A stretch of DNA of 64,000 bases, taken from the NCBI GenBank assembly GCA_030612725.1, contig JAUWNJ010000004.1:62001-126000 (forward strand), given 5' to 3'. Source of the stretch: Planctomycetales bacterium. GTDB taxonomy: Bacteria > Planctomycetota > Phycisphaerae > SM23-33. Under the pieces are notes generated by a model, which was not told the DNA's origin, ran no database searches, and saw only the letters and a program-made list of their open reading frames with translations. The position numbers and the translations under genes are program-made. Below are positions 4,713-37,960 of this stretch, in pieces. How positions within the stretch are numbered: the stretch's first letter is position 1; each line of letters starts with the position of its first letter.

Positions 4713-4819
4713 AATGGTTCCTTCCCGGCAGAGGACGCAGGTGACATCGGCGGGAACAGTCGGGCGGTTTGTTTTTGTTGGTTGCCGATGAAAAAACGAT
4801 TTTCGAGGAGACACACGAC

Positions 4820-6154
4820 ATGGAAGTTAAACTGGTAAACATCAATGAAATCACACCTTACGAGAACAATCCCCGCATCAATGACTCGGCTGTAGATGCG
4901 GTTGCGGCGTCACTGAAGGAGTTCGGCTTCCGCCAGCCGATTGTGGTGGACGAGAACGGTGTGATCATCGTCGGCCACACCCGGTTGAAGGCCGCGCAGA
5001 AACTTGGCCTGGAGAAGGTGCCGGTCCACGTGGCCAAGGACCTCACCGAGGCCCAAATTAAGGCTTACCGCCTGGCCGACAACCAGACGGCCAGTATCGC
5101 CGACTGGAATTACGAACTTCTGCCCATCGAATTGGGCGATCTGAAGGAGATAAACTTCGACCTGAACCTTCTCGGTTTCGACCAGGACGAACTGTCGCAG
5201 TTGCTCGATCCCGGTGCCCAGGACGGCCTGACCGACCCGGACGAGGTACCCGCGCCGCCGGATGAGGCCATCACCCAGCCGGGCGATTTGTGGATATTGG
5301 GCGAGCATCGACTTCTCTGTGGCGACAGCAGCAAGTCCGAGGACGTCGACCGTCTCTTGGACGGCGCGAAGATTCATCTGGTCAACACCGACCCACCATA
5401 CAACGTGGGCGTTGCCTCCCGGAGCAACAACGCCATCGCCGCCTCCGGCGACAGGCCCATCGGCCAGCAGGGCATGGACATTGCCATCCGAACCGGGAAG
5501 CACAAGACGGACAAGAAGCTTCGGGCCAAGGACCGGTCGCTGGTCAATGATTTTATTTCCGACGAAGAGTTCGCCAGGCTGCTGCGGCTGTGGTTCGGCA
5601 ACATCACGCGGGTGCTGGAACCCGGGCGCGGCTTCTACATCTGGGGCGGGTATAGCAACATTTGGAACTATCCCAACGCGCTGAAGGAAAGCGAACTGTA
5701 CTTCTCGCAGATGATTATATGGGTCAAGGAGCACCCAGTCCTCACCCGCAAGGACTTCATGGGCAACCACGAGTGGTGTTTCTATGGCTGGAAGGAAGGG
5801 GCGGCGCACAAGTTCTACGGCCCGGCCAACATCACAGACGTCTGGTCGGTCAAGAAGGTCAACCCACAGTCGATGATCCATTTGACGGAGAAACCGGTCG
5901 AGCTGGCTGTCCGCGCTATCCAGTATTCGTCGCTGACCGGCGAGAACATCCTGGATCTGTTCGGCGGCTCGGGCAGCACGCTGATTGCGTGCGAGCAGAC
6001 GGGGCGGAAAGCATTCCTCATGGAGATCGACCCGCTGTATTGCGACGTGATTGTTCAAAGGTACGAGCAGTTCACGGGCAAGAAAGCCGAGAGGGTCACG
6101 GCCAAGAGCACCCCGGTCCCAACCGGAACCGGGGTGAAGGGGGAAATGAGTTGA
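4820..6154 (+). CDS. ParB-domain DNA methyltransferase
   Basis: 444 residues. The ATG at 4820 follows a GAGGAG ribosome site. Residues 1-90 are a ParB/Srx-like domain (ITPYENNPRIND, GHTRLKAAQKLG). The remainder is an amino-methyltransferase: catalytic motif IV is DPPYNVG (near residue 193) and the AdoMet motif is LDLFGGSGSTL (near residue 380), the order of the beta class. It should methylate adenine N6 or cytosine N4. ParB-methylase fusions are common in phages and modify phage or host DNA. No partner endonuclease is adjacent. Confidence 0.9.
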   Translation: MEVKLVNINEITPYENNPRINDSAVDAVAASLKEFGFRQPIVVDENGVIIVGHTRLKAAQKLGLEKVPVHVAKDLTEAQIKAYRLADNQTASIADWNYELLPIELGDLKEINFDLNLLGFDQDELSQLLDPGAQDGLTDPDEVPAPPDEAITQPGDLWILGEHRLLCGDSSKSEDVDRLLDGAKIHLVNTDPPYNVGVASRSNNAIAASGDRPIGQQGMDIAIRTGKHKTDKKLRAKDRSLVNDFISDEEFARLLRLWFGNITRVLEPGRGFYIWGGYSNIWNYPNALKESELYFSQMIIWVKEHPVLTRKDFMGNHEWCFYGWKEGAAHKFYGPANITDVWSVKKVNPQSMIHLTEKPVELAVRAIQYSSLTGENILDLFGGSGSTLIACEQTGRKAFLMEIDPLYCDVIVQRYEQFTGKKAERVTAKSTPVPTGTGVKGEMS

Positions 6155-6378: not shown

Positions 6379-6381
6379 GGT

Positions 6382-7971: not shown

Positions 7972-7990
7972 GTTTGCGGGGCAAAGACTT

Positions 7991-14898: not shown

Positions 14899-15240
14899 AT
14901 GGCAACTGCAACATTTGTGCATGACGGAAATGCGATTGATTACACGCCCGGTGCCGACGTGGCCGCCGGGGCGGTGGTGCTTCAGGAAGCACTGATCGGC
15001 GTGGCGAAGCGGCCTATCGCGGCCAATACGCTCGGCGCTCTGGCCGTTACGGGCGTGTTCGATTTTCCAAAGACAACCGGCGTGGGCGAGGCGATTACTG
15101 TCGGGTCCAAGGTCTATTGGGACGTGGCCGACCAGGTGGCCAAGACCGACGATGAGACCGGCGCGAACGTTCTTCTCGGCAAGACTATCAAGGCTGCCGG
15201 CGACGACGATGCGACTGTCCGCGTTCGGCTGGACCAATGA
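14899..15240 (+). CDS. DUF2190 capsid decoration-type protein
   Basis: 113 residues with AAGGAG before the ATG. DYTPGADVAAGAVVLQEALI and KVYWDVADQVAKT are typical of DUF2190 proteins, which follow the capsid gene in many phages and probably stabilise the shell. Ends in an ATGA overlap with the next gene. Confidence 0.8.
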   Translation: MATATFVHDGNAIDYTPGADVAAGAVVLQEALIGVAKRPIAANTLGALAVTGVFDFPKTTGVGEAITVGSKVYWDVADQVAKTDDETGANVLLGKTIKAAGDDDATVRVRLDQ

Positions 15241-18289: not shown

Positions 18290-18730
18290 ATGGCGACATA
18301 CGTATTGGGCATGAACGCCGGGTTGTACCAGGGCGCAGCCGGTGAAACCGACCCGGCCCTGATGACCGAGGTGGACAACGTCCGCGATGTAACGCTCAGC
18401 CTCGAAGCAGGCGAAGCGGACATCACCACGCGCGGCAACAGCGGCTGGCGAGCAACGGCTCCGACGCTGCGGGAGTGCAGCGTCGAGTTCCAGATGGTCT
18501 GGCGGCCGGGCGATGCCGTTTTCGACGCGATAAAGGCCGCGTTCCTCTCGGCCGGGACCGTCGCATTGGCGGTGCTCGACCAGAAGCGGACCATCACCGG
18601 AGCACAGGGTCCGCTCGGTGATTTTTCAATCACCAACTTCAGCCGTAACGAGGCGCTGGAGGAGGCCATCGTCGCCGACGTAACGGCCAAACTCGCTCGG
18701 TTCGAAGAATGGCACGAGGTGACCCCGTAA
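18290..18730 (+). CDS. Major tail tube protein
   Basis: 146 residues, mostly beta: DVTLSLEAGEADITTRGNSG, CSVEFQMVW and GDFSITNFSRNEALEEAIVA. Arrangement and length fit phage tail tube proteins that stack as hexameric rings. It precedes the tail chaperone and the tape measure as in other siphophages. Its stop overlaps the next ATG. Confidence 0.75.
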   Translation: MATYVLGMNAGLYQGAAGETDPALMTEVDNVRDVTLSLEAGEADITTRGNSGWRATAPTLRECSVEFQMVWRPGDAVFDAIKAAFLSAGTVALAVLDQKRTITGAQGPLGDFSITNFSRNEALEEAIVADVTAKLARFEEWHEVTP

Positions 18731-19200
18731 TGAAAACCTTCACTGATACCGCCGGACGAACCTGGAGCATAAGTCTCAACCTCGGCACTGCACAGCAGGT
18801 CAAGGACGCGCTGAAAATCGACCTGCTCCAACCGGAAGCGGGCGACCCGCCGCTGTTGACGCGGCTGGGCACAGACGAATTGCTACTCGGCGAAGTTATT
18901 TGTTGCCTGTTGGGCGGTCAGTTCGAGGCCCACAAGGTAACCGAAGCTGACGTGCGGGCGAGTTTTGACGGCGCGACATTACTGGCGGCGCAGAAGGCGT
19001 TCTATGAGGAACTAATCGATTTTTTCCGCCAGCGCGGCCGGGCCGACCGCGCCCGAGCCGTGGAGACACAGGCAAAGATGATCGAAGCAGCCGTCAAGGC
19101 CATCGAGACGCGGATCGAAGGTCTGGACATCGACGCGGCGATCCGTGGCGCGATGTCTGGTTCATCGCCGGAAGTCTCAGCGTCGATCCCCGACCACTGA
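18730..19200 (+). CDS. Tail assembly chaperone (gpG-like)
   Basis: 156 residues from the ATG overlapping the tube gene stop. DTAGRTWSISLNLGTAQQVK, then a helical body, and a Ser-rich end SGSSPEVSASIPDH. This end is overlapped by a second conserved-looking frame, the arrangement of G and GT chaperone pairs that recruit the tape measure during tail assembly. Confidence 0.7.
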   Translation: MKTFTDTAGRTWSISLNLGTAQQVKDALKIDLLQPEAGDPPLLTRLGTDELLLGEVICCLLGGQFEAHKVTEADVRASFDGATLLAAQKAFYEELIDFFRQRGRADRARAVETQAKMIEAAVKAIETRIEGLDIDAAIRGAMSGSSPEVSASIPDH

Positions 19201-19439
19201 CGCTGCGGCAGTTGCTCTGGATGGCCGAGGGCCACGGCCGCGACGAATGGGGCCGGACGGCGCTGCTGTGTGCGTTAATTGGCAACGCCCACCGCGACCC
19301 GAAAAAGGGCCGGGCGTTCAAGGTCGCCGACTTCGACCCGTTCGACCGCGAGCCAGGCGAAGTGATTGAAGTGGACACCGAGAACATCGGTCTGCTGAAG
19401 CAGGCCTTCAAGGTCTCCAATGGAAGGAGCGAGAGATGA
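19143..19439 (+). CDS. Tail chaperone second frame (probable frameshift extension)
   Basis: In the frame shifted by -1 from the chaperone, reading runs on after the first ORF and encodes WRDVWFIAGSLSVDPRPLTL then RQLLWMAEGHGRDEWGRTAL. The block WxxAGxLxxDPxPLTLRxLxxMAEG is conserved in phage genes at this spot. No ATG or GTG precedes the block in this frame; the first possible starts (TTG 19212, ATG 19221) would remove it. It is therefore probably made as a frameshifted extension. The exact shift site is not clear. The end overlaps the next ATG. Confidence 0.55.
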   Translation, partial: PWRDVWFIAGSLSVDPRPLTLRQLLWMAEGHGRDEWGRTALLCALIGNAHRDPKKGRAFKVADFDPFDREPGEVIEVDTENIGLLKQAFKVSNGRSER

Positions 19440-19561
19440 AAGTGCAATGGATTGCAGTAGCGGCGGCCGTGGCCGTGCTTCTGATCGTAACCGGCTGTAA
19501 CGGTACGGGCGACATGGGCGGACAACCGGTTTGGCGAACACCAAGTAGCCATGCACGTTGA
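19436..19561 (+). CDS. 41-residue phage lipoprotein
   Basis: Basic start, hydrophobic stretch AVAAAVAVLLIV, then the lipobox VTGC at residue 21, followed by a 20-residue polar tail. The ATG overlaps the previous stop (ATGA), GGAAGGAG precedes it, and its end overlaps the Mom-like gene by 11 bases. A processed product would be a 21-residue lipopeptide. Candidates are an Rz1-like spanin part or a superinfection-exclusion lipoprotein. No Rz partner is visible. Confidence 0.6.
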   Translation: MKVQWIAVAAAVAVLLIVTGCNGTGDMGGQPVWRTPSSHAR

Positions 19562-20291
19562 TTGCATAAACATGGACGAGGCCAAGCGGCTCTGCCTGCG
19601 GTGGCATTACAGCAACATCTTCCCACCGCACTGCATGGTGTCTCTGGGCTTCTACGACGACCAGGGCCTGGGCGGCGCTGCGATATGGGGCTGGGGAACC
19701 CGGCCACGCCACACTATCCAGAAACTCTTCCCCAGCCTGGACACGGGCGATTATTGGGAACTGAACCGGCTGGTCTGCCGGGATGAACTGCCGCGCAACA
19801 CGGAAAGCGAATTCCTGGCCGGGTGCGCGCGGTGGTTTAGGGCGAATCAGCCGGAGCGTGTGCTGCTGTTCACCTGGGCCGACGGGATTCGCGGCAAGCC
19901 GGGCTATGTCTATCAGGGGTCCAACTGGCTCTACGGCGGTTACATCACCACGGAAATCTACCTGACCGCCGACAACGAGCCGGTCCATCCGAGATTCATG
20001 ATTACCCGCTTCGGCACGCGCAAGAAAAGCGTCTGGACGGCGCTGGGGCTTCGGAAGGTCTGGGGCCGGCAGTTCCGCTATGTAAGGTTCCTCTGCGACC
20101 ACGCGACGCGAAAGCGGCTGCTGCGTGAGAGTTCATTCGAGTGGACGCAGATGTATCCAAAGCACGACGATTTGTTATGGAAAATTGATGCGGGCGAGGG
20201 GTCAAGAGAGACCCACAATCCCCCCAGGATTGAGAGGGCGGGGCAGTTCCGCCAGCCCGCTTTTACCGCTGCAATGCAAATGAAGGTGTAA
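19551..20291 (+). CDS. Mom-like DNA modification protein (GNAT fold)
   Basis: 246 residues. The opening DEAKRLCLRWHYSNIFPPH, the middle WELNRLVCRDELPRNTESEF and the diagnostic YADxxxG..YQxxNW-type block, here TWADGIRGKPGYVYQGSNWL, follow the Mom family. Mu Mom changes adenines in phage DNA to a methylcarbamoyl form and protects it from restriction. The fold is GNAT-like. The C-terminal 50 residues are extra and basic. It lies between tail chaperone and tape measure. Function is inferred from motif pattern. Confidence 0.7.
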   Translation: MHVDCINMDEAKRLCLRWHYSNIFPPHCMVSLGFYDDQGLGGAAIWGWGTRPRHTIQKLFPSLDTGDYWELNRLVCRDELPRNTESEFLAGCARWFRANQPERVLLFTWADGIRGKPGYVYQGSNWLYGGYITTEIYLTADNEPVHPRFMITRFGTRKKSVWTALGLRKVWGRQFRYVRFLCDHATRKRLLRESSFEWTQMYPKHDDLLWKIDAGEGSRETHNPPRIERAGQFRQPAFTAAMQMKV

Positions 20292-20297: not shown

Positions 20298-22295
20298 ATG
20301 GCCTCCTCACGTGGAATTCGAGCCGGTCGCGCGTTCGTCGAGTTGTTCGCCGACGACAGCAAACTCGTGCGCGGGCTGCGCCGGGCCGAGAAGAAGATCA
20401 AGGCGTTTGGCAGCTCCATCCGCAACATGGGCCTGAAAATGGCAGGGCTGGGTGCGGCGATACTTGCGCCTCTGCTGGGCGCGGCTAAGGCGTTCAGTTC
20501 CATGGGCGACCAGATAGCAAAGATGGCCAAGCGGACGGGCCTATCGGTCGAGGCGCTCAGCGAATTGAAGTTCGTCGCCAGTCAGACCGGCACATCCATC
20601 GAGGCCCTCGAGACCGGCTTTCGCCGGATGCAGCGCAGTATTTATGACGCCGGGCGCGGACTATCGACGCAGACCGACGCGCTGGCCGACCTCGGACTGG
20701 CGTACAAGGACCTCAAAGACCTCGCGCCGGAAGAGCAGTTCAAGCTCATGGCCGAGGCAATCTCCCGAATCGAAGACCCCACGCGCAAGGCCGCTCTCGC
20801 CCAGGCACTGTTCGGCCGGGCCGGTACGATGATGCTGCCCATGATGGCCAAGGGGGCCAAGGGAATCGAGCAACTCCAGAAGGAAGCCCGTCGGCTGGGT
20901 TTGACGATGAGCAGTGAGGACGCAGCGGCGGCCGAGGAGTTCACCGACACGCTCGACGCCCTCTGGAAGGTCGTCAAGATGGGCGTCTTCCGCGTGGGTG
21001 CGGCCCTTGCGCCGGTCCTCAAACAACTGGCTGAGACGATTACCGATGTGGCCATGAAGGTCAGCGCGTGGATTCAGGCCAATCGCCAAATCATCGTAAC
21101 AGTCCTGAAAGTCGCGGCGGCTGTGCTGGCCGGTGGAATTGCACTGGTAGTACTCGGCACGATTATCAGTGGATTAGGCAGCGCCCTCGGCGGGCTAATC
21201 ACCATCGTTACGACGGTCGGAACGGTCTTCAAACTCCTGGCCGGCGTGATCGCCTTTCTGCTGTCGCCGATTGGCCTGGTTATCTCCGCCGTTGCGGCGA
21301 TGGGGGCATACCTTATATATGCGACCGGCGCAGGCGGCAAGGCGCTGACCTGGCTGGGCGAGAAGTTCGGTGTCCTCAAGGACGACGCACTCACCGCCTA
21401 TCAGGGCATCGCTGATGCGCTTGCCGCCGGCGACATCTCCCTGGCCGTCAAGGTCCTGTGGCTGACGCTGAAGATGGAATGGACGCGCGGCGTGAACTTC
21501 CTGGAGAAGGCTTGGCTGAATTTTCGGAACTTCTTCATCAAGATCGGCTACGACGCATGGCACGGCCTGCTGGCCGTCGTCGAGGTCGTCTGGCACGCAC
21601 TGGAGGTCGGCTGGATTGAGACCACCGCGTTCTTCGCCAAGGCCTGGTATGGGTTCGTGGGCTTCTTCGCCAAGACGTGGGAACGCATCAAGTCCGGTGC
21701 CAAAAAGGCCTGGAACTGGATCAAGAGCCTGTTCGACGATTCGGTCGATTTGGAGGCCGAGAACAAACTCGTCGAGCAGGAAAAGCAGCGGGCCATCTCG
21801 CAGATCGACGATGAGCAGCAACGCAAGACCGCCGAGCGGGAGGCTAAGCGCGAAGCGGAACGTCGTCGCGCGACAGCGGTCCATGAAGCGACGATGGGCG
21901 AGATTGGCCGGGAGAATCTCCAGAAGCACAGCGAACTCGACGCCGAATACGAGCGTCGCATGTCCGACAACGAGGCCGACCTGGCCAATGCCCGCAAGGA
22001 GTGGCGAGACGCCGTCGAGGAGGCCCGCAAGAAGCGCAAGGCAAAAGAGGCCGCCGGTCCGGACAAACTGGAAGGGGCCGATGACATCATCGCCAGGGCG
22101 AACCGCGCCATTGCCGGGATGGGCGACCTGCTCGGTCGCCAGGCCGCGAAGATCGGCTCGCAGGGAACGTTCGTCGCTGCCAACGTCCTGGGCCTCCAGA
22201 CCGGCGGCGTAACCGACCGCATGGCCAACGGTATCGACAAGATCGAAAAGAACACCCGCCCGCTACGGAACGCGGATAGGATGGCGTTCCAGTAG
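20298..22295 (+). CDS. Tail tape measure protein
   Basis: 665 residues. An N-terminal helical part (GIRAGRAFVELFADDSKLVR), then the recurring tape-measure block GLSVEALSELKFVASQTGTS. Three or more hydrophobic stretches lie at about residues 270-350 (VLAGGIALVVLGTIISGLG and others), and a long Glu/Arg/Lys coiled coil covers about 480-590. It sets tail length and may help DNA pass the membrane. Its last 55 residues reappear, inverted and partly changed, at 55680-55860. Confidence 0.88.
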   Translation: MASSRGIRAGRAFVELFADDSKLVRGLRRAEKKIKAFGSSIRNMGLKMAGLGAAILAPLLGAAKAFSSMGDQIAKMAKRTGLSVEALSELKFVASQTGTSIEALETGFRRMQRSIYDAGRGLSTQTDALADLGLAYKDLKDLAPEEQFKLMAEAISRIEDPTRKAALAQALFGRAGTMMLPMMAKGAKGIEQLQKEARRLGLTMSSEDAAAAEEFTDTLDALWKVVKMGVFRVGAALAPVLKQLAETITDVAMKVSAWIQANRQIIVTVLKVAAAVLAGGIALVVLGTIISGLGSALGGLITIVTTVGTVFKLLAGVIAFLLSPIGLVISAVAAMGAYLIYATGAGGKALTWLGEKFGVLKDDALTAYQGIADALAAGDISLAVKVLWLTLKMEWTRGVNFLEKAWLNFRNFFIKIGYDAWHGLLAVVEVVWHALEVGWIETTAFFAKAWYGFVGFFAKTWERIKSGAKKAWNWIKSLFDDSVDLEAENKLVEQEKQRAISQIDDEQQRKTAEREAKREAERRRATAVHEATMGEIGRENLQKHSELDAEYERRMSDNEADLANARKEWRDAVEEARKKRKAKEAAGPDKLEGADDIIARANRAIAGMGDLLGRQAAKIGSQGTFVAANVLGLQTGGVTDRMANGIDKIEKNTRPLRNADRMAFQ

Positions 22296-22352: not shown

Positions 22353-23213
22353 ATGGCACTAACAAAGGATGAGATAGAACGGCTGGTCGCAATTACATTC
22401 CGTGACCACTTGGATTCAAACTGGAAAATACTTCCCAATCACAGAGAATCGCCCGATTTTCTTCTTTCCAATCAGATGTCCACAATCGGCCTAGAGCTGA
22501 CAGAGTATCGCCAGCCTGGCGCTAAGGACAAAGCCGTAAACTACGATGGACAATTCAAGCGGTTTGTTCTGAATGCCTGGATTGATGATCCCAAAGTTAA
22601 TCACTGGTCTGTCAGTCTTATATACAGGCTGACGCAGGCGGGAGAAATGAACGGGCGTTACATGGTTCCACTCCCCCAGGAACGGGACAGTGCCATCGAG
22701 GAACTCAAAGAGTTGGTTTGCATTATCCCAACTCCTCATGATCAGCAGATGATTGAGGTCCGCTTCAGGCAAGACAACCTACGTTTGGCGAACTCTCCTT
22801 ACGGTTCACGATATCATTGGGTTGACGAGGTGGACTTTCCGATTCTCCATAAGTGCGTTGAGTCTTTCCGTTTTACTTACCACTCGGGACTCGTTCTAGG
22901 GTGGCCAAGAAGCAATCTCGATGTGGGTTGGTTGGGCGTGATAGAAAGCGATCTCATAGAACACGTCCAGAAGAAGCTTTCAAAGCTTCCAGACTACAGG
23001 CGGAACGTCCCTGCAGAAACGGAGATTCACCTTCTCATTTGGAGCAGTGGCCGATCCGTGACACAGCGTTTCGGCCCACAGCACATAGAGACCGTCCGCC
23101 AGATTGTAGCAGAGGAACAGGAACTGGGTGGCGATCAGTTTGATGCCGTTTGGTGGGGCTCCGATTTGCTCATGGACAATGGTACGAAGCACGAATTTGT
23201 GAAGTTGGCGTAG
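22353..23213 (+). CDS. Cargo protein with PD-(D/E)XK-like motif, 286 aa
   Basis: A GAAAGGAG ribosome site precedes the ATG. The motif SPDFLLSNQMSTIGLELTEY near residue 30 has the P-D...E-x-T layout of restriction-like nucleases, but with Thr in place of the usual Lys. Base composition is lower in GC than the tail genes on either side. The gene splits the tape measure from the next tail gene, a spot where a related phage copy carries other cargo. I therefore infer an accessory (moron) gene, perhaps for defence. No family name can be given. Confidence 0.6.
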   Translation: MALTKDEIERLVAITFRDHLDSNWKILPNHRESPDFLLSNQMSTIGLELTEYRQPGAKDKAVNYDGQFKRFVLNAWIDDPKVNHWSVSLIYRLTQAGEMNGRYMVPLPQERDSAIEELKELVCIIPTPHDQQMIEVRFRQDNLRLANSPYGSRYHWVDEVDFPILHKCVESFRFTYHSGLVLGWPRSNLDVGWLGVIESDLIEHVQKKLSKLPDYRRNVPAETEIHLLIWSSGRSVTQRFGPQHIETVRQIVAEEQELGGDQFDAVWWGSDLLMDNGTKHEFVKLA

Positions 23214-27008: not shown

Positions 27009-27087
27009 TGTCCGGACGGGAGTCGGGGCTGCTCGGATGAGTGGCTCCGACACCGCCATAGGACAAGTGTTGCATGAGGAAACCAGC

Positions 27088-27681
27088 GTGAAGACGAAGA
27101 TAGAAAATATCGTTGACATCCAAATCGGCTACCAGTTTCGGGAGAAACTGGACATGGCCTTGGATGGCACGCATCAGGTGATCCAGGCGAAGAACATCGA
27201 TGCGGAGAATGATCACCGGCTGAATTTCACGAGCATCGTCCGGGTGACGCTGAAGCGGGACGCTAAGAAATACGTGGTCAATAATGGCGATGTCATTTTC
27301 CTATCCAAAGGCCGTCGGAATTACGCCACGCTGATTGAGGGGTTATCCTCGGATACCAAGGCCATCGCCGCAGGATACTTCTTCATTCTCAGGCCGAAGG
27401 TCGAAACCATCCGAACGGACTACCTTGCCTTGGCGATCAACGAACCGTCGGCCCAGAGTTATTTGAAGAGTGTGGCGAGCGGCAGCGGCATGCCGTTTAT
27501 CTCTAAGCAGGCGTTTGCCGCCCTTGAGATTGATATACCGGCGGCCGAAACGCAGGAAAAGGTTGTCAAACTACACCAACTTTCGTTTAGGGAGAGTGCC
27601 TTACTGAAGCGGTTAGAGCAGAAACGAAATAAACTTATCCGTGGCATCTGTCTTAAGGCTATTAGGCAAGCAGCGCGGTAA
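27088..27681 (+). CDS. Single-TRD type I specificity-like protein (half HsdS)
   Basis: 197 residues from GTG 27088, which has GAGGAAACC upstream; a frame-compatible ATG at 27037 is the alternative. IENIVDIQIGYQFREKLD opens one target-recognition domain, and LEQKRNKLIRGICLKAIR closes it with the conserved helix. Normal HsdS has two such domains (about 400 residues), as does the gene at 31935. Half-size S subunits can dimerise or come from another system. It sits 14 bases before hsdM. Confidence 0.65.
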   Translation: MKTKIENIVDIQIGYQFREKLDMALDGTHQVIQAKNIDAENDHRLNFTSIVRVTLKRDAKKYVVNNGDVIFLSKGRRNYATLIEGLSSDTKAIAAGYFFILRPKVETIRTDYLALAINEPSAQSYLKSVASGSGMPFISKQAFAALEIDIPAAETQEKVVKLHQLSFRESALLKRLEQKRNKLIRGICLKAIRQAAR

Positions 27682-27695
27682 ACCAAGGAGAAATC

Positions 27696-29186
27696 ATGGC
27701 AAGCAAACTAACCCAAAAGGAAATCGAGAACATTGTATGGCGGGCGTGCGACACGTTCCGCGGGGCCATCGACCCATCGGAGTATAAAAACTACATCTTG
27801 ACTATGCTCTTCGTGAAATTTCTCAGCGACTTGGCCAAGGACAAGCGCGAAGAATACATGAAGAAGTACAATGGCGACGAGAAGCGAGTCGAGCGAGCCA
27901 TGAGCCGCGAGCGCTTCGTTGTGCCGCCTGAGTGCGATTTTGATCACCTCTACGCCAAGCGTGACGCGGCGAACATCGGAGAACTGATCAACGTCGCTTT
28001 GGAAGGAATAGAAGATGCCAACAAGGCCAAACTAGAAAACGTCTTCCGCAACATTGACTTTAACTCCGAGCCCGCCCTCGGCCAAACGAGGGATCGCAAC
28101 CGCCGCCTCCGAAACCTTCTGGACGATTTTGCCGAGGTCGATTTGCGTCCGTCGAACCTGAACGGCCGGGATATCATTGGCGACGTATATGAGTACCTCA
28201 TTGGCCGCTTTGCAGCCGGAGCAGGCAAGAAGGCGGGCGAATTCTACACGCCGCCGGAGGTCTCAACGTTGCTGGCAAGGTTACTCGCTCCTAAATCCGG
28301 CGACCGTATCTGCGACCCGGCTTGCGGGTCCGGCTCGCTGCTGATCAAGGTTGGCAGACAGGTCGGCTCGGAAAATTTCTCCCTGGCCGGGCAGGAATCT
28401 AACGGCAGCACATGGGCGCTGTGCAAGATGAACATGTTCTTGCACGGCATGGATTCGGGCCGCATAGAGTGGTGCGATACAATCAACAACCCCCGGCTCA
28501 TCGAGGGCGACGACCTGATGAGGTTCAACGTCGTGGTAGCCAATCCCCCGTTCAGCCTGGATAAATGGGGTCAGGAGCACGCCGAGACCGACCGTTTTCG
28601 CCGTTTCACTCGCGGCATTCCCCCCAAGAGCCGTGGCGACTATGCGTTTATCTCCCACATGGTCGAGATCGCTCTGCACGGCGAGGGTAAGGTAGGCGTA
28701 ATTGTACCGCACGGCGTGCTGTTCCGCAGCGGCAGTGAAGGCAAAATCCGACGGAAATTCTTGGAAGAGAACCTCATCGAAGCCGTCATCGGCCTGCCGC
28801 CTAACCTCTTCTACGGCACCGGCATACCGGCCGCAATCTTGCTGTTCAACAAGGGCAAGAAGAAAAAGGGCGTTCTTTTCATCGATGCCAGCCGGGAATA
28901 CCAGAACGGCACGAACCAGAACTATCTCAGGCCGGAGGACCTCGACAAGATCGTCACCACCTTCCAGGCTTTCCAAACCGTGGATAAGTACGCCTATCGA
29001 GCCACGTTTGACGAGATTGCCGAGAATGACTTTAACCTCAACATTCCTCGCTATGTGGATACATTCGAGGAGGAAGAGGAAATCGACATTCAGGCAGTGC
29101 AGAGAGAAATTGCCGAGATAGAGGCGCAACTCGACGAGACGCGCAGGGAAATGGCGGGCCACATGAGGGAACTGGGGTTGGAATAA
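27696..29186 (+). CDS. hsdM: Type I restriction-modification methyltransferase subunit
   Basis: 496 residues with AAGGAG before the ATG. An N-terminal helical domain is followed by the AdoMet motif DPACGSGSLL (near residue 208) and catalytic NPPFSLD (near residue 284), the gamma-class N6-adenine order. GEFYTPPEV marks the usual HsdM region. The C-terminal 50 residues are acidic coiled coil that contacts HsdS. It is followed after two bases by the CBASS effector gene, not by hsdS. Confidence 0.93.
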   Translation: MASKLTQKEIENIVWRACDTFRGAIDPSEYKNYILTMLFVKFLSDLAKDKREEYMKKYNGDEKRVERAMSRERFVVPPECDFDHLYAKRDAANIGELINVALEGIEDANKAKLENVFRNIDFNSEPALGQTRDRNRRLRNLLDDFAEVDLRPSNLNGRDIIGDVYEYLIGRFAAGAGKKAGEFYTPPEVSTLLARLLAPKSGDRICDPACGSGSLLIKVGRQVGSENFSLAGQESNGSTWALCKMNMFLHGMDSGRIEWCDTINNPRLIEGDDLMRFNVVVANPPFSLDKWGQEHAETDRFRRFTRGIPPKSRGDYAFISHMVEIALHGEGKVGVIVPHGVLFRSGSEGKIRRKFLEENLIEAVIGLPPNLFYGTGIPAAILLFNKGKKKKGVLFIDASREYQNGTNQNYLRPEDLDKIVTTFQAFQTVDKYAYRATFDEIAENDFNLNIPRYVDTFEEEEEIDIQAVQREIAEIEAQLDETRREMAGHMRELGLE

Positions 29187-29188
29187 CC

Positions 29189-30337
29189 ATGTCGAGCACA
29201 GCAATACCAGGCAAAGTGAAACTCCGCCTCTGGGTTAAAGCCGGAGGTCGATGTCAGTACGCCGGATGCAACAAACCACTCTGGCGCGACGATCTGACTA
29301 TGGCTGATATGAACCGCGCCTACATCGCTCACATCATTGCCGATTCACCCAATGGGCCTCGAGGAGATGCCGTGCTCTCACCGCAATTGGCCGACGATAT
29401 CAGCAACCTGATGCTGTTGTGCGACGAGCACCACCGGTTGATCGACCATGAGGGCAAAGATGACCACTCGGTCGAGACGCTTCAATGCATGAAGCGCGAA
29501 CACGAGCAGCGGATCGAAACCGTCACTAGCATAGATTCGGATAGGCAAAGCCACATTCTGCTCTACGGAGCCAACGTGGGCGACCATAACTCCTCGGTAT
29601 CCTATCGCAAAGCAAAATTGGCTATGTTGCTCGACAAGCGATATCCGGCGTCCCCCCATCCATTGTTGTTAGGAATGGTCAACAGTTCGTTTCGTGATCG
29701 AACGGAAGAATTCTGGCGAATCGAGAGCGACCACCTCCGCAATATGGTCCAGCAGCAGATTCGTCCACAGTTGGCTAGTGGCGGCATTGAGCATCTTTCG
29801 GTCTTTGCGCTCGCTCCACAACCGCTACTTATGCTCCTCGGCTATCTGCTTTCTGATATCCCCGCCGCCCAAGTCTACCAGCTCCACCGCGAACCGCAGG
29901 ATTGGTGCTGGCAAAACGATTCCGACGGGTTCGAATACATGGTTCAAGAGCCTGGTGAAGCCACGGGGCAGCCAGCCCTGGTGCTGTCGCTCAGCGCGAC
30001 GATCATGGACGACCGCATCAGTGCTGTGCTGGGGGACGACGCAGCAATCTGGCGTGTGACCGTACCCGAGCCGAACAACGATTTCCTGAAGTCACGCCGG
30101 CAACTCCAACAATTCCGCGAGATAATGCGTCAGTTGCTGAACAGTATCAAGGCCCGGCATGGCCAAGACGCCGTACTTCACGTCTTTCCCGCCGCACCCG
30201 TTGCCGTCGCCGTTGAAATGGGGCGGATTATTATGCCCAAGGCGGATGTGCGGTTACGCATCTATGACCAAAACAACGACCTCGGCGGCTTCATGCACGC
30301 CTTGGACCTCGCAACAGCACAGGGAGGTGCTAAATGA
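29189..30337 (+). CDS. cap5: CBASS effector: HNH endonuclease-SAVED (Cap5-like)
   Basis: 382 residues. Residues 15-85 are an HNH nuclease: CQYAGC, IAHIIADSPNG and NLMLLCDEHHRLID provide metal and catalytic residues. The rest is a SAVED domain, with the typical FALAPQPLLMLLGYLLSD and VYQLHREPQDWCW. Known Cap5 proteins bind a cyclic nucleotide through SAVED, assemble and cut DNA, killing the infected cell. The stop overlaps the CD-NTase ATG by four bases, giving the usual two-gene unit, here set inside a type I restriction operon. Confidence 0.88.
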   Translation: MSSTAIPGKVKLRLWVKAGGRCQYAGCNKPLWRDDLTMADMNRAYIAHIIADSPNGPRGDAVLSPQLADDISNLMLLCDEHHRLIDHEGKDDHSVETLQCMKREHEQRIETVTSIDSDRQSHILLYGANVGDHNSSVSYRKAKLAMLLDKRYPASPHPLLLGMVNSSFRDRTEEFWRIESDHLRNMVQQQIRPQLASGGIEHLSVFALAPQPLLMLLGYLLSDIPAAQVYQLHREPQDWCWQNDSDGFEYMVQEPGEATGQPALVLSLSATIMDDRISAVLGDDAAIWRVTVPEPNNDFLKSRRQLQQFREIMRQLLNSIKARHGQDAVLHVFPAAPVAVAVEMGRIIMPKADVRLRIYDQNNDLGGFMHALDLATAQGGAK

Positions 30338-31872
30338 CTGAAACCCAATACAGACAGCAACTGAACCTGATCCTCGGCGATTTGGCCGATGAACTGGATG
30401 TCCCGCCGTCCAAGTATGAGGAGGCCAAGGAGCACTACGACGCTGTCGGAACCTGGCTCGGCGAGGACGATTCGGAACTGGCCTCCTACGGCCCTGTGAT
30501 TTATCCACAGGGATCGTTCGCTTTGGGCACTGCGGTCAAGCCAATTGGCGATGACGACTACGATGTCGATGCCGTTTGCTCGCTTCAACTTGACGAGGAC
30601 CAAGTTAGCCAACCACTTCTCAAGAAGATGGTCGGTGACCGGCTAAAGCATCCCCACAGCCGCTACAGGAACATGCTCGACCCCGCAGATGGCGGCCGCC
30701 GATGCTGGACCATCAAATATGCCGATGCTTCCAAGTTTCACTTGGACGTGCTTCCGGCCATCCCCGATGAATATGCCTGGCTCATCGCTTTGGGTGTACC
30801 CGAGCAGTTGGCCAAGTACACCATCTGCATCACCGACAGGAATACATGGGACACGGATATTGATTGGCCGAAGAGCAACCCCAAGGGGTATGCGGCCTGG
30901 TTCAAAAACCAGATGCTGGTCCGGCTGGAGGAGGGCAGACGCACCGTCGCTATGCAGAAGAAGGTCGAAGTTCAGCAAGTTCCTGATTACGAGGTACGCA
31001 CGCCGCTGCAGCGGGTTGTCCAATTGCTCAAACGCCACCGCGACTTGCGTTACAACGGCGACGACGATAAGCCCGTCTCCATCATCATCACGACCCTCGC
31101 GGCCCAGGCCTACAATAATGAAGCGGACATTGTTGATGCACTCCTGAATGTCGTTCCGGGCATGCGCGACGCCATTGAGGAGCGGGACGGCATTTTGTGG
31201 GTGCCGAATCCCGTTAACCCGGAGGAGAACTTCGCCGACAAATGGGCCGAGACGCCCCGAAAACAGGAGATTTTCTTTGAATGGTTGGCTGTCGTCGAGC
31301 AGGAACACAGAAACCTGCTGACAAGTCGCGGCTTCGAGAAGGTCGGAACCTACCTGACCGAGGCCTATGGTTACCGCGATGCCTCCGCGGCTATGACGAA
31401 ATACGCCAGCAGAGCCAGCCAGCCAGAGGCTGAGAGCAACCTCCGAGCCGGCAGTATCATCCAAGCAGCCTCCACACCGCTCGCACGCTTTGATGTCCCG
31501 CATCGTGAGCCCCTACGCTGGCCGGAGCAACCCCGTTACGATGTGACGATTTCTGCTACTGCCTCAAGAAAAGACAAGAGTTCATTTCAGTTCAATTCTG
31601 ATTCAGTGCCGCTGCCGGAGCACTGGGACCTTAAGTTCACGGCCACCACAACTGCTCCGGAACCTTTTGACGTCTACTGGCAAGTCGTTAACACAGGTGA
31701 AGAGGCTGCATCACATGGCGCGCGCGGACTCCGCGGCATAATCTTCCCAGGAACCAACCTGAATCGCGACGAGAAAACTGAGTACACCGGATTCCACTGG
31801 ATCGAGTGCTTCCTCGTCAAAGACGGCGTGTGTGTGGCGCGCAGTGGCGAGTTCGTGGTTAACATTGAATAA
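30334..31872 (+). CDS. CBASS CD-NTase with AGS-C sensor domain
   Basis: 512 residues. The nucleotidyltransferase signature is QGSFALG (Gly60-Ser61) with DYDVD (Asp77 and Asp79), and a third Asp in FHLDVLP (about 138). The C-terminal 90 residues, PEPFDVYWQVVNTGEEA to GFHWIECFLVKDGV, match the AGS-C domain found in such enzymes. It should make a cyclic oligonucleotide on phage infection that activates the SAVED effector. Pairing with Cap5 suggests clade G, but this is inference. No Cap2/Cap3 genes are nearby, so it would be a short (type I-like) CBASS. Confidence 0.88.
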   Translation: MTETQYRQQLNLILGDLADELDVPPSKYEEAKEHYDAVGTWLGEDDSELASYGPVIYPQGSFALGTAVKPIGDDDYDVDAVCSLQLDEDQVSQPLLKKMVGDRLKHPHSRYRNMLDPADGGRRCWTIKYADASKFHLDVLPAIPDEYAWLIALGVPEQLAKYTICITDRNTWDTDIDWPKSNPKGYAAWFKNQMLVRLEEGRRTVAMQKKVEVQQVPDYEVRTPLQRVVQLLKRHRDLRYNGDDDKPVSIIITTLAAQAYNNEADIVDALLNVVPGMRDAIEERDGILWVPNPVNPEENFADKWAETPRKQEIFFEWLAVVEQEHRNLLTSRGFEKVGTYLTEAYGYRDASAAMTKYASRASQPEAESNLRAGSIIQAASTPLARFDVPHREPLRWPEQPRYDVTISATASRKDKSSFQFNSDSVPLPEHWDLKFTATTTAPEPFDVYWQVVNTGEEAASHGARGLRGIIFPGTNLNRDEKTEYTGFHWIECFLVKDGVCVARSGEFVVNIE

Positions 31873-31934: not shown

Positions 31935-33167
31935 ATGGTACCTGACGGGTGGATCGAAACAAGGTTAGGAAACGTAGTGGAAGTAAATCCGCGACGGGCA
32001 AACAACCTAAGCCCCGAAGATCAGGTTACATTCCTGGCGATGCCGGATGTGGCCGTAGGGGGCGGGATCGCTAATCGGCAAGTTCGCGATCTATCTGAAG
32101 TCAATAACGGTTACACGGCCTTTCGTGAGAAAGATGTTCTCATTGCCAAAATTACGCCATGTTTCGAGAACTGCAAGGGTGCGATTGCGACCGGATTGAC
32201 GAATGGGTACGGATTCGGGAGTACCGAGTTTCACGTACTTCGCGCAACGGAAAAATGTGACATACATTTCATCTACTATCTGACAATGTCGCATCACTTT
32301 AGGGGACGAGGTGCGGCCAACATGACAGGCTCTGCTGGCCAAAAGCGAGTCCCCACTGATTTCATTAGGGCTTACCATTTTGCCCTGCCACCTCTCATTG
32401 AACAACACAGGATATCTCAGACCCTCTTCACCTGGGACCGAGCCATTGAGCAGGCATCTCGTCTGATTTCGGCCAAGACGAGGATCAAGAAGGCCCTGAT
32501 GCAGCAACTGCTCACCGGCAAACGACGATTCAAGGAGTTCGTGAAATCAACTGTGATGATTGACACCCACTTCGGGCTGGTGCCTGAGGACTGGCCGTAT
32601 ATCAAGATGAGCCAGGTTGCTCGTGAGGTGTCGGAGCGAAACGGGAAAAGGAACTCGATTCCGGTACTGTCGTGTACCAAATACGACGGCCTGGTGGACT
32701 CGCTGAAGTACTTCGGCAAGCAAATCTTCAGCGACGATACATCGAATTACAAACTGGTCCGTCGTGGCCAGTTTGCCTATGCGACTAACCATATCGAGGA
32801 AGGTTCAATTGGCCTGCTTACCCACCTGGAAGCGGGCTTGGTCAGCCCGATGTACACGGCCTTCGAGACAAACGACAAGGTTCACGCGCCGTTCTTATAT
32901 GCCCTGTTCAAGACCGAGTTATACAGACACATCTTCCAGGTGAACACTAATGCTTCAATCAATAGGCGCGGCAGCCTTCGCTGGAAGCAGTTCGCCGAAA
33001 TCCGAGTGGCGCTGCCGAGCCTCGACGAGCAGAAAAACATCGCGTCCGTCCTGGCGGCCGTCGACGCTGAAATTAACTTGCTGTGCCAGCGAATGGGCCG
33101 GCTTAAGGAGCAGAAGCGCGGCCTGATGCAGAAATTACTCACGGGCAAGGTGCGCGTGAAAGTGTAA
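31935..33167 (+). CDS. hsdS: Type I restriction-modification specificity subunit
   Basis: 410 residues, GAAGGAG ribosome site. Two target-recognition domains, each closed by a conserved helix: ALMQQLLTGKRRFKE (near residue 195) and GLMQKLLTGKVRVKV at the end. It would set the bipartite DNA target of the HsdM/HsdR complex. Sixty bases separate it from the CD-NTase gene, so it may have its own promoter. Confidence 0.92.
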   Translation: MVPDGWIETRLGNVVEVNPRRANNLSPEDQVTFLAMPDVAVGGGIANRQVRDLSEVNNGYTAFREKDVLIAKITPCFENCKGAIATGLTNGYGFGSTEFHVLRATEKCDIHFIYYLTMSHHFRGRGAANMTGSAGQKRVPTDFIRAYHFALPPLIEQHRISQTLFTWDRAIEQASRLISAKTRIKKALMQQLLTGKRRFKEFVKSTVMIDTHFGLVPEDWPYIKMSQVAREVSERNGKRNSIPVLSCTKYDGLVDSLKYFGKQIFSDDTSNYKLVRRGQFAYATNHIEEGSIGLLTHLEAGLVSPMYTAFETNDKVHAPFLYALFKTELYRHIFQVNTNASINRRGSLRWKQFAEIRVALPSLDEQKNIASVLAAVDAEINLLCQRMGRLKEQKRGLMQKLLTGKVRVKV

Positions 33168-33192
33168 ACCCCTTACATAAGGAACAACGATC

Positions 33193-33432
33193 ATGGCTAA
33201 ACGAGGACCGAAGACGCATCATGTGGTGCCGAACAAGAATGAAGGTGGCTGGGACGTTCGACGCGGAGGCGCAATCCGCGCCAGCGGGCACTTTGACACG
33301 AAACAGGACGCCGTTGACGCTGCGCGCGAGATCAGCCGGAACCAGGACACTGAACTGCGTATCCACAACATGGACGGCAAGATATCACAATCCGACAGCC
33401 ACGGGAATGACCCGTATCCGCCCAAAGGGTAA
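33193..33432 (+). CDS. DUF2188 small protein
   Basis: 79 residues. THHVVPNKNEGGWDVRRGGA and KQDAVDAAREISRNQDTELR fit DUF2188, a small beta-alpha domain of unknown function common in mobile elements. Located between hsdS and a nuclease-like gene. Confidence 0.75.
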   Translation: MAKRGPKTHHVVPNKNEGGWDVRRGGAIRASGHFDTKQDAVDAAREISRNQDTELRIHNMDGKISQSDSHGNDPYPPKG

Positions 33433-33443
33433 GGGAGCAAATC

Positions 33444-34697
33444 ATGGCCCAAGACAACCTGCTTTTCTATGAAGGCGATCTGTCGGCGATGCTCAACGGG
33501 CATTTTGCAAAGGCCGTGGAGAAGGTGAACGCCATTCCCGAAGCGCAGTTCCTCAACACCGACGATGACAAGATAGTCGAGCACATCGTTTCGGACATGG
33601 AAGTCCAGGCCATCGAATTGCACGAAGACGCGACGGAGATGGACCAGGAGGAAACGCGAGTAGATGTCTCCGGGCGGTTCGACTACTTCACCGTTCCGGG
33701 TGAACGAACGGAAGTTCCGGGCCTCATGGTCACGGTGTCAATTCCGTTCACCGGCGATCCGTTGCTTTGGAAGCTGCGACCAAACAGGTTCCAGACTATC
33801 TTCCCTCGAGCGCATATCCGGCACCCCGGAAGCGATGGGATTGGGTATCTGGACATCGTTATGGAACAGCCCAGCAGTGCAAGCCCCGATAGCTATAAGC
33901 AAGGTCTTGAGCATACCTTGCAGAGCGTCCGGTTTTACCTGGACGCTCAGAAGAGCCAGATTGAAGCAGAGAACCATAGGCTTCCGCAGCGTGTTCGGGA
34001 AGCCGTGGTGAAACGGCGAGAGCGGCTTAAGAGCCACTCGGCGGTCATCCAGGTGCTGAACATACCCCTTAAGAAACGGCCGGGTGCCCCAGATGTTTCA
34101 ATGATACCGGTTAAGCGAAAGCTGGTGAAACCGCTGCCGCCGGTCCCGAACAAGCCGCCGGAACCAGGGATCGCCGTGGAGGACTACGAGCATATCCTTG
34201 GCGTGATTCGGCACGAGGGCCGATCCTTCGAGGCGACGCCAGTGACGTTTGCGAAGCACAATGAGGAAGAGCTTCGGGACATCATTCTCGCTCATTTGAA
34301 TGGGCATTATCAGGGAGACGCAACAGGAGAGACGTTCCGGCGGCACGGTAAAACGGACATCCGAATCGAGGATAAGGAACGGGCCGCATTTGTAGGGGAA
34401 TGCAAGGTCTGGCGAGGCGCTAAGGAGTTGTCAGAGGCTGTCGATCAACTGCTGAGCTATCTTACATGGCGGGACTGCAAGGCGGCCCTTGTCATCTTCA
34501 ACAAACACGTAGCAGGTTTTGCGGAAATCCAGAAGAAGGTTCCTGATATTCTGAATTCGCACGACTGCTGCCTCAGGTCCGTGGAAAGCGGGCATGCAGG
34601 TGAATGGCGATTCATCCTTCGGTCAAAGGAGGACCAAGATCGCCACATCACCATTCACGTTTTCCTCTTTAACCTGTACGTGAGCAAGAATGACTAA
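33444..34697 (+). CDS. Restriction-like nuclease-domain protein, 417 aa
   Basis: AAGGGAGC precedes the ATG. The N-terminal 240 residues are unassigned. The C-terminal part has a PD-(D/E)XK pattern: RHGKTDIRIEDKERAAFVGE then CKVWRG gives D...E-x-K. It lies between hsdS and hsdR, which already has its own nuclease, so it may add a second cutting activity or act independently. Function not assigned. Confidence 0.65.
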   Translation: MAQDNLLFYEGDLSAMLNGHFAKAVEKVNAIPEAQFLNTDDDKIVEHIVSDMEVQAIELHEDATEMDQEETRVDVSGRFDYFTVPGERTEVPGLMVTVSIPFTGDPLLWKLRPNRFQTIFPRAHIRHPGSDGIGYLDIVMEQPSSASPDSYKQGLEHTLQSVRFYLDAQKSQIEAENHRLPQRVREAVVKRRERLKSHSAVIQVLNIPLKKRPGAPDVSMIPVKRKLVKPLPPVPNKPPEPGIAVEDYEHILGVIRHEGRSFEATPVTFAKHNEEELRDIILAHLNGHYQGDATGETFRRHGKTDIRIEDKERAAFVGECKVWRGAKELSEAVDQLLSYLTWRDCKAALVIFNKHVAGFAEIQKKVPDILNSHDCCLRSVESGHAGEWRFILRSKEDQDRHITIHVFLFNLYVSKND

Positions 34698-34741
34698 ATC
34701 GCAGCGCGGCCACCTGATGGTCACAAAGGTAGGTGATAGAC

Positions 34742-37700
34742 ATGGAACATGAAACGCCACTAATCAAAGAGGACCACATCTCCCAGGTTCCGGCGCTGCA
34801 ATTGCTACAGAACCTTGGTTGGGAGTATCTGTTGCCGGCCGAGGCGATGGCGCTACGCGGCGGACGAACGTCGGGTGTGATCCTGGACGGCATCCTGGAG
34901 AAGCAACTGCGGGCAATGAACAAGGTCCGCTTTAAAGGGCAGGAATACCCGTTCACCGAGGGCAACATCCACACTGCGATCCGAGCACTCAAGGATGAGG
35001 TCTATGACGGACTGGTGCGGACAAACGAGAAGATCTATGACCTGCTGTGTCTGGGAAAGAGCCTTCAGCAGTCCATCGAGGGCGACCTGAAGAGTTTCAC
35101 GCTGCACTATATTGACTGGGAACATCCGGAGCGGAACGTCTATCACGTTACGGAGGAGTTTTCCGTCGAGCGGACCGGCAGCAAGGAGACATACCGACCG
35201 GACATTATGCTGTTCGTCAATGGAATTCCACTGGTGGTGATTGAGTGCAAGAGGACCGACCTCGGGCCGGGCAAGGACCCGGTGGAGCAGGCAATTAGTC
35301 AGCACATCCGCAACCAGAAGGAAGACGGCATCCCGAAGTTGTTCACGTACGTGCAATTGCTTATGGCCGTCTCCAAGAACGAGGCAAAGTTCGGCACGGT
35401 CGGGACGCCGATGAAGTTCTGGGCGCGGTGGAAGGAGCCGGGTGACCACGAAGCGGAGGTTCGTGAACTGACTGGCCGGCCGCTTTCGGCAGAGAAAAAG
35501 GACAGGCTTTTCGACGACCGGTTTGCTTATGTGCGTGAGTATTTCGACGCGATGGAGGCCGAGGGTGGCCGCGAGGTAACCGAGCAGGATCGGGCAATCT
35601 GGGCGCTATGCCGTCCCGAGCGGCTGCTGGAATTGATTTTTCGATATATCCTGTTCGACGCAGGGGCAAAGAAGATAACCCGGTATCAGCAATACTTCTG
35701 CGTCAAGAAGATCATGGACCGGATCAGGCGAATGGAGGGTGGCAAACGTAAGGGTGGCGTGGTCTGGCACACCCAAGGCAGCGGCAAGAGCCTGACGATG
35801 GTGATGCTTGCTAAGGCCATCGCGATGGACGATTCCATTGACGACTTCAAGATTGTCCTGGTAACGGACCGCGTGGATCTGGATGACCAGATATACAAGA
35901 CTTTCAAGCATTGCGGCGCGGAGTTGGAGCAGGCAACGACGGGAGCCAATCTGGTCGAGATGCTCATAAGCAAAAAACAGCGGATCACCACCACTGTTAT
36001 CAACAAGTTTGAGGCAGCCGTCGGCAGGCAGGGCGTGCGCAACGAAGACCCGAATGTCTTTGTCTTGGTAGATGAAGGGCACCGCACCCAATATGGGCCG
36101 TTGCACGCCAAGATGCGTAAGGCCCTGCCCAACGCCTGCTTCATCGGCTTTACCGGCACACCAGTGATGAAGCGGAATAAGAACACGGTGCAGAAATTCG
36201 GCGGCTTGATCGATACCTACACGATCTCCGAGGCAGTAAAAGACGAGGCCGTTGTGCCTCTATTATACGAAGGTCGGCACGTCCGGGAGAAAGTTGACGC
36301 CAAGGCAATTGATGAATGGTTTGAGCGAATCACTGAGGACTTGTCCGATGAGCAAAAGGCGGACTTAAAGAAAAAGTTCAGCACGGCGGAAATGCTGATG
36401 CGAGCAAAACCTGTCGTTCGAGAGATTGCCTGGGATGTCAGCAATCACTTCCGTGACAATTGGCAGCACACGCCATTCAAGGCCCAGTTGGTTGCTCCGC
36501 GAAAGGAGACGGCCTTGCTGTACAAGAAGTACCTTGATGAGTTCGGCGTGGTGAGGTCGCAGGTGCTCATTTCCGGCCCAGACGAGCGCGAAGGTGAGGA
36601 GGACATCTACAAGGTAAACAAGGATCCTGTTATCCGGTTCTGGAAGGCAATAATGGACCGGTACGGCACAGAGAAGGAGTACAACCGTCAGGTTATCAGT
36701 GCCTTCAAAGACGGCGATGCATCCGACTTGGAGGGTGACGCGCCGGAGATCATTATTGTCGTAGATAAGCTTCTGACAGGGTTTGATGCACCGTGCAATA
36801 CGGTGCTCTACCTGGCAAGAAAGTTCACCGAGCATACGCTATTACAGGCTATTGCTCGTGTGAACCGTCTGCATGACGGGAAGGAGTTCGGGTACATCCT
36901 CGATTATCGCGGCGTCCTGGAGAACTTAGATCACGCATTGGACATGTACAGCAATCTGTCTGAATTCGAGCGTGAAGACTTGGCCGACATGATGACGGAC
37001 GTACGGGCGATTACCGAGAAGCTTCCGCAGAAACACTCGGTCCTGTGGGACACCTTCAAAGAGGTCAAAAACACTCGCGACTACGAGGCCTACGAGCGGT
37101 TGCTATCGGACGATGCGTTGCGGGTGCATTTCTATGAGCGGTTTGCCGACTTCGCCCGGACTTTGAGTGTGGCGATGTCCACGGCCGCTTTTCTGGAAGA
37201 AACGCCCGAAAAGAAGATCAACGAATATCGCAAGGACCTGAAGTTTTTCCAGGAGCTTCGTAGTTCAGTGCGGCGGCGTTATGCCGAGGTCGTGGACTTC
37301 TCCGAATACGAGTCGAAGATTCGCAAGCTACTGGATACACATTTGGGCACTGAAGCAGTTGAGCAGATCACTGGAGCCATTGACCTTTTCAACAAGGAGG
37401 AGCGAGAGAAGGCTATAGCGGAGCCCCTAAGTGACGAAGCCAAGGCCGACATGATCGCCCACAATACGAAGCGAGTACTCGATGTCAAATGGCAAAGAGA
37501 AGACCCGGCGTTCTACAAAAAGTTCTCTAGGATTCTTCAGGACGTAATCAATGCGTTCCGTGCAGAGCGTATCCGAGCAACGGAATACCTGAAGAAGGCG
37601 ACAGACATTATGAACTCAGTTCTTAATAGGACCGGGGATGAAGTACCCGAAACACTCGACGGCAAGGATGTGGCCAAAGCGTACTACGGTTGTATAAGGG

Positions 37701-37960
37701 AGATCTTCGAGGGGTACCAGGGAGATGGCCTTGATGTTCAAGGCCATAGCGCCGAGGCAAGCCTTGCAATTGATAAGATCATCGAGGATCGTCGAATTGT
37801 GAACTGGGTGGATAACACTGATGTTAAGAACCGGATGCGTCAGGAAATCGAGGATTATCTGTTCGAGTTGAAGGATCGGCTCAGCGCCAATCTGACATTC
37901 GAGGACATGGACTTGATTATGGATCAGTGCCTGGATATTGCAAAAGCGAGGCGGCCGTGA
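34742..37960 (+). CDS. hsdR: Type I restriction endonuclease/translocase subunit
   Basis: 1072 residues from ATG 34742, with AGGTAGGTGAT upstream; a GTG at 34733 is less likely. Residues 1-250 carry the nuclease core (RPDIMLFVNG then IECKRT). The SF2 translocase follows: Walker A QGSGKSLT (near 350), DEGHRTQ, GFTGTPV and ARVNRLHD motif VI. The C-terminal helical domain anchors it to HsdM. Cleaves unmodified DNA after translocation. Its stop overlaps the next gene's GTG. Confidence 0.93.
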   Translation: MEHETPLIKEDHISQVPALQLLQNLGWEYLLPAEAMALRGGRTSGVILDGILEKQLRAMNKVRFKGQEYPFTEGNIHTAIRALKDEVYDGLVRTNEKIYDLLCLGKSLQQSIEGDLKSFTLHYIDWEHPERNVYHVTEEFSVERTGSKETYRPDIMLFVNGIPLVVIECKRTDLGPGKDPVEQAISQHIRNQKEDGIPKLFTYVQLLMAVSKNEAKFGTVGTPMKFWARWKEPGDHEAEVRELTGRPLSAEKKDRLFDDRFAYVREYFDAMEAEGGREVTEQDRAIWALCRPERLLELIFRYILFDAGAKKITRYQQYFCVKKIMDRIRRMEGGKRKGGVVWHTQGSGKSLTMVMLAKAIAMDDSIDDFKIVLVTDRVDLDDQIYKTFKHCGAELEQATTGANLVEMLISKKQRITTTVINKFEAAVGRQGVRNEDPNVFVLVDEGHRTQYGPLHAKMRKALPNACFIGFTGTPVMKRNKNTVQKFGGLIDTYTISEAVKDEAVVPLLYEGRHVREKVDAKAIDEWFERITEDLSDEQKADLKKKFSTAEMLMRAKPVVREIAWDVSNHFRDNWQHTPFKAQLVAPRKETALLYKKYLDEFGVVRSQVLISGPDEREGEEDIYKVNKDPVIRFWKAIMDRYGTEKEYNRQVISAFKDGDASDLEGDAPEIIIVVDKLLTGFDAPCNTVLYLARKFTEHTLLQAIARVNRLHDGKEFGYILDYRGVLENLDHALDMYSNLSEFEREDLADMMTDVRAITEKLPQKHSVLWDTFKEVKNTRDYEAYERLLSDDALRVHFYERFADFARTLSVAMSTAAFLEETPEKKINEYRKDLKFFQELRSSVRRRYAEVVDFSEYESKIRKLLDTHLGTEAVEQITGAIDLFNKEEREKAIAEPLSDEAKADMIAHNTKRVLDVKWQREDPAFYKKFSRILQDVINAFRAERIRATEYLKKATDIMNSVLNRTGDEVPETLDGKDVAKAYYGCIREIFEGYQGDGLDVQGHSAEASLAIDKIIEDRRIVNWVDNTDVKNRMRQEIEDYLFELKDRLSANLTFEDMDLIMDQCLDIAKARRP

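Follow-up and report, generated by a model that had tools for sequence, protein, structure and literature searches.

A Mom-family gene in the tail operon of a planctomycete prophage and evidence for its transfer as a single gene among related phages

We characterized a gene at positions 19551 to 20291 of a 64,000-nucleotide stretch of a planctomycete MAG (G000, 3.16 Mb in 65 contigs); the whole stretch, G000:C36:62001-126000, is called the window below. Sequence, fold and active-site residues together strongly support that its product is a genuine Mom-family protein. The family is already known, and the planctomycete prophage gene is a new member of it. Our best explanation, with a probability of about 0.82, is a working Mom that would be made late and protect virion DNA, for which no Com-type control was found and which appears to move as a one-gene cassette between two slots. 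The argument draws on the following features of the window.

4769..6154, + strand, ParB-N and N6_N4 methyltransferase with DPPY motif (PF01555 2.5e-28, PF02195 3.8e-9)
6089..6101, unstranded, slot B, empty in the window prophage; flanking DNA matches contig C10
11370-12806, portal
12748-14796, protease-capsid fusion
14899-15240, cement
18290-18730, tail tube (Pfam Phage_tail_2)
18709..19200, + strand, tail assembly chaperone, first frame (by position; conserved in slot-A relatives)
19212..19439, + strand, tail assembly chaperone, second frame (by position; conserved in slot-A relatives)
19436..19561, + strand, 41-codon ORF with lipoprotein-like N-terminus, stop inside mom codons 3-4
19551..20291, + strand, mom, predicted 246-aa Mom-family (GNAT-fold) DNA adenine-modification enzyme (PF25680, PHROG 1384, 8bv8, dN/dS)
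20298..22295, + strand, tape measure, directly 3' of mom (phrog_9483 4e-45 and other tape-measure families)
27037..29186, + strand, type I specificity subunit (HsdS) and HsdM
29189..31872, + strand, CBASS pair, HNH-SAVED effector and CD-NTase cyclase
31935..37960, + strand, second HsdS, PDC-S54 protein and HsdR

The mom ORF runs uninterrupted over 246 codons from ATG to TAA. It matches the Pfam Mom family PF25680 (5.6e-43, 147.4 bits, profile positions 3-193 of 202) at 120 bits above the curated cut-off of 27.1 bits, PHROG 1384 'Mom-like DNA modification protein' at 1.1e-38 and, by sequence, the solved Mu Mom 8bv8 at 7.7e-16. These matches lie far beyond chance. Using tblastn against 50,697 phage records, 227 records with a match were found, every one less than 60% identical. 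The best was Methylophilales phage Melnitz (38.8% identity over 86% of the protein), a 141-kb phage in which mom sits among small genes of unknown function, whereas the window gene sits in a tail module.

An AlphaFold2 model was built from an alignment of 68 diverse Mom rows (the window protein plus viral and genome contigs) and reached a mean pLDDT of 92.7 and a pTM of 0.87, replacing an earlier model from 9 close relatives with a mean pLDDT of 40.1. Foldseek returned Mu Mom 8bv8 as the top PDB match to this model (E 3.0e-14; second entry 2.0e-5). With VIA-align, the comparison to 8bv8_A gave Z 21.1 and an rmsd of 3.3 over 188 aligned residues at 30% identity, while the runner-up, a glyphosate acetyltransferase, reached Z 13.4. 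Hundreds of GNATs match this fold, which is what would be expected if the protein were an ordinary GNAT acyltransferase carried as phage cargo and acting on a protein or small molecule, not on DNA. We consider this very unlikely, given that the Mom match stands far above those to other GNATs, that the PF25680 score exceeds its cut-off so clearly, that related phages have mom adjoining DNA methyltransferases and that the residues invariant in 25 Moms, including Mu, are kept.

Those residues were identified from 17 Moms of the planctomycete clade and 8 from named phages, Mu included; H19, Y20, E70, N83, D111, G118 and Y121 were the same in all 25, as were Q122, E143, H146, R176, Y177, P203 and K204. 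Karambelkar et al. are said to have found in 2020 that H48, Y49, R101, D139 and Y149 are essential in Mu Mom. The window residues H19, Y20, R73, D111 and Y121 align with these; H48, Y49, D139 and Y149 are obtained when 10 is subtracted from the positions in the 241-aa Mu record. Not all of these residues appear to be strictly kept across the family, because R73 (Mu R101) is replaced by K in 46 of the 68 wider rows. H19 and Y20 were found in 56 of the 68 rows and are gapped in 12, whose N-terminus was probably lost through the chosen start. Further, the 8bv8 entry is titled 'inactive mutant S124A', and Mu S124 aligns with S86, a position that is S in 67 of 68 rows. The first-pass annotation had named a structural match to Mom as a check on its proposal and a fold without the Mom active-site residues as speaking against it; 8bv8 is the best structural match, and the five residues as well as S86 are present. 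Window Mom and Mu Mom thus have family, fold and these residues in common. Unlike Mu Mom, the window protein is without the N-terminal extension and has a tail at its C-terminus, spanning about residues 206-240, that is kept throughout the planctomycete clade.

Comparisons of the window gene with five relatives gave dN/dS values of 0.113 (C10), 0.056 (L022), 0.087 (L035), 0.135 (L037) and 0.113 (L034), a range of about 0.06-0.13 that indicates maintenance by purifying selection. The location inside a tail module could also suggest a degenerate or structural tail gene that merely resembles Mom. This is extremely unlikely in view of the low dN/dS, the retained active-site residues and the presence of mom relatives outside the tail module at 7 loci, one of which is in a second prophage of G000.

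Their location after the tail tube led us to interpret the ORFs at 18709-19200 and 19212-19439 as a tail assembly chaperone encoded in two frames; Pfam and PHROG scans gave no family match for the first of them. The earlier reading of this DNA, a Mom-like gene between tail chaperone and tape measure, therefore stands, with the chaperone assigned by position only. Host-type genes (porin, PhoU, phosphate transport) start at about 44 kb and the phage region is thus a prophage. Close to this right end, at 43071-43561, a DUF2924 ORF is accompanied by the initial portion of a serine recombinase, a remnant with 70% DNA identity to a left pair at L006:10151-12207. The two prophage ends showed no convincing att repeat, the longest exact match common to both being 16 bases.

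Directly after the tape measure, a 286-aa ORF (22353-23213) possibly carries, as judged by eye, a PD-(D/E)XK nuclease N-terminus. It had no Pfam, PHROG or PADLOC match and is absent from the sibling phage L022. A link between mom and this ORF was considered and dropped, as the ORF has no relatives in viral_contigs. A nuclease at this place, not seen in relatives, would suit a phage restriction-modification pair in which Mom marks phage DNA and the nuclease cuts unmarked host or rival DNA. Such pairing was proposed for jumbo-phage Mom-REase fusions (PMC7824862), where a Mom domain occurs in a phage, as in the window, with a nuclease fused to it. The window Mom has none fused, and the 286-aa ORF is without family matches or viral relatives and is missing in the sibling G003, which keeps mom, the tape measure and the next gene. 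We regard this pairing as very unlikely.

The window prophage carries a defence island at 27-43 kb, which in addition to the type I and CBASS genes listed above holds a RAMA/GIY-YIG protein and a TmtA-like protein. The CBASS pair lies within the type I locus, with HsdM on one side and the second HsdS on the other (effector PDLC00739 2.7e-162, CD-NTase PDLC00770 1.9e-167). A ParB-methylase (4769-6154) and a type I restriction system (27037-37960) are therefore both present in this phage, as the first-pass annotation had noted, and its suggestion that mom could protect the phage from its own restriction system finds its motive in their shared prophage. Type I restriction systems bring their own protective methylase, and the complete system here has its own HsdM. 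Moreover, the C10 prophage keeps mom although no HsdM, HsdR or HsdS match was found in the 60 kb around it. A role for mom in shielding the prophage against its own type I system and CBASS island is thus highly improbable. On the - strand, a cluster of small ORFs at 6163-7887 is convergent with the ParB-methylase. Parts of this cluster are 84-89% identical in DNA to C10, compared with mostly 65-75% for other matching phage parts, and its 182-aa ORF (6382-6930, - strand) looks HARE-HTH-like by eye.

To place mom in related phages, we surveyed 20 distinct stretches with a Mom match besides the window (21 loci, L022 and L033 being one contig). Slots were defined by neighbouring genes, and the counts describe gene location only, by themselves no test of association. 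In 8 of the 20 stretches, mom lies between chaperone and tape measure (slot A: L022, L023, L024, L034, L035, L036, L037 and L038), and in 7 it lies beside a homologue of the ParB-methyltransferase (slot B: L004, L019, L025, L026, L027, L028 and L040), ahead of the methylase in L027. The other five (L029, L030, L031, L032 and L039) were unplaced, being partial, weak or without a common neighbour; in L030 a C-terminal mom fragment adjoins the start of the tape measure. In the slot-A loci L023 and L024, mom is followed on its 3' side by an open frame that contains the methylase motif SPPY, with a Pfam N6_N4_Mtase match of 5e-47 in L023.

A wider neighbour survey covered 86 Mom loci of viral contigs, with 69 of 84 upstream and 55 of 70 downstream ORFs scanned and with opposite-strand neighbours and most Mu-type near-duplicates left out. 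N6_N4 methylases made up 4 of the 69 immediate upstream proteins and tape-measure families 4 of the 55 immediate downstream ones (three planctomycete slot-A loci and one unrelated phage, L063). Neither kind of neighbour is therefore characteristic of Mom genes in general. In L063, outside the planctomycete group, mom lies directly ahead of the tape measure (682-4224). In several viral contigs two Mom genes are immediate neighbours, the additional, diverged one lying either upstream (L057, L059, L060, L066, L069 and L089) or downstream (L070 and L118).

G000 itself carries two mom genes, the window copy in slot A and a copy in slot B of a second prophage on contig C10. The two are 88.0% identical, compared with 31.2-66.0% for the 15 other genes common to both prophages. 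At the mom locus, DNA similarity to C10 is confined to 19549-20273 (725 bp, 85.2%), covering the mom ORF only and no flanks. At the empty slot B, matches of the window to C10 stop at 6088 and resume at 6102, and in C10 the two matching parts lie on either side of mom. Parts of the adjoining block at 6102-7974 are also 84-89% alike in DNA, and because of this C10 may have acquired mom together with the block from a single donor. Transfer of mom independently of its neighbours is seen a second time in L036 (slot A), whose mom is 86.1% identical to that of the window, compared with 48.0% for the tail tube, 54.3/45.5% for the chaperone and 36.8% for the tape measure.

A tree of 17 Moms places the C10 gene among slot-A genes, with the six other slot-B genes standing apart. 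Forcing slot A to form one clade was rejected only marginally, with a borderline AU p of 0.046. Synonymous divergence of the window gene is higher against C10 (0.61) than against L022 (0.41), which argues that the transfer was not recent within G000. In the C10 prophage, a neck-protein homologue (L003:15026-15523) lies directly ahead of the tape measure, where related phages have mom. Altogether, there is good evidence from these comparisons that mom travels as a one-gene cassette among related planctomycete phages. A more tentative extension, which we hold at somewhat worse than even odds, is that the cassette has two fixed homes, one in the late tail operon and one paired with a methyltransferase, and that modification timing evolves by relocation and not through Mu-style regulators. 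Moving mom between homes would then alter both timing and strength of phage-DNA modification. Our literature searches, with subscription papers outside their reach, returned no report of a planctomycete Mom or of mom being exchanged between slots.

Control of the window gene was compared with that of Mu, where mom lies at the genome end with its own C-dependent promoter under Dam/OxyR control and where Com, a zinc-ribbon translational activator, overlaps the mom start; the window gene lies inside the tail operon. No match to the Com zinc-ribbon family PF10122 was found in G000, and the same search recovered Com in both control records (Mu and one viral contig). On the + strand between 17500 and 23500, a scan for sigma-70-type promoters and for terminator-like sites found neither, which is consistent with read-through from the tail operon. 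One GATC lies within about -350 to +150 of the mom start. A Com-like RNA control structure at the mom start was considered and found no support (z-score -0.42). The 41-codon ORF at 19436-19561 has a single cysteine and no Pfam family, and at its place L035 carries about 460 bp extra. The ORF is probably the remnant of a longer accessory gene block that was deleted, and since it may be an accident of deletion we do not claim translational coupling to mom.

The Mom family has an established function in the protection of phage DNA, and in Mu the group added to adenine is N6-carbamoylmethyl, also written methylcarbamoyl. By analogy, the window gene product most likely makes a Mu-type N6-modified adenine that would protect virions in the next host; protection of phage DNA is our best inference for its role. 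Upon prophage induction, late transcription would pass through the tail operon, and Mom and the tail proteins would be produced at the same late stage of the lytic cycle. Mom would put its group on adenines of replicated phage DNA before packaging, and the packaged, modified DNA would resist the restriction enzymes of the next host. In the lysogen, silence of the late operon would be enough to keep the toxic gene off without Com. In the Mu literature, Mom modification is described as shielding Mu DNA from restriction (PMC6483171) and Mom as silent in lysogens (PMC12707154). The first-pass annotation had treated expression with late genes as a contrast to Mu. This contrast falls away, as Mu mom is itself a C-dependent late transcription unit, harmful if expressed at the wrong time (PMC4461284). 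Both genes reside in temperate phages, and the difference from Mu control is that no Com was found, not late timing.

These results extend the Mom family, with support from fold and active-site residues, to temperate phages of uncultured planctomycetes, and provide a natural test case for the control of a toxic DNA-modification gene in the absence of Com. Close mom copies in different operons of two prophages in one genome would allow the effect of position on timing and extent of modification to be compared. The less ordinary part is that one gene has moved precisely from one home to another, which can be observed in the genome of one host.

Mom matches were far more numerous among viral contigs than within the phylum. 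A match to the window protein was present in 8 of 100 relatives (8 genomes, the genome itself among them if included as listed), and PF25680 matched 8 of 294 phylum genomes at E 0.001, 5 of them over the family cut-off. Among 600 viral-contig stretches matching one motif, at least 385 were Mom relatives. Two further genomes of the phylum, G183 and G303, gave weak Mom-profile matches that score under the family cut-off, at L132, L133 and other loci; the matching ORFs are 207-710 aa long, are repeated 10 and 5 times in the two genomes, respectively, and possibly encode mobile-element proteins.
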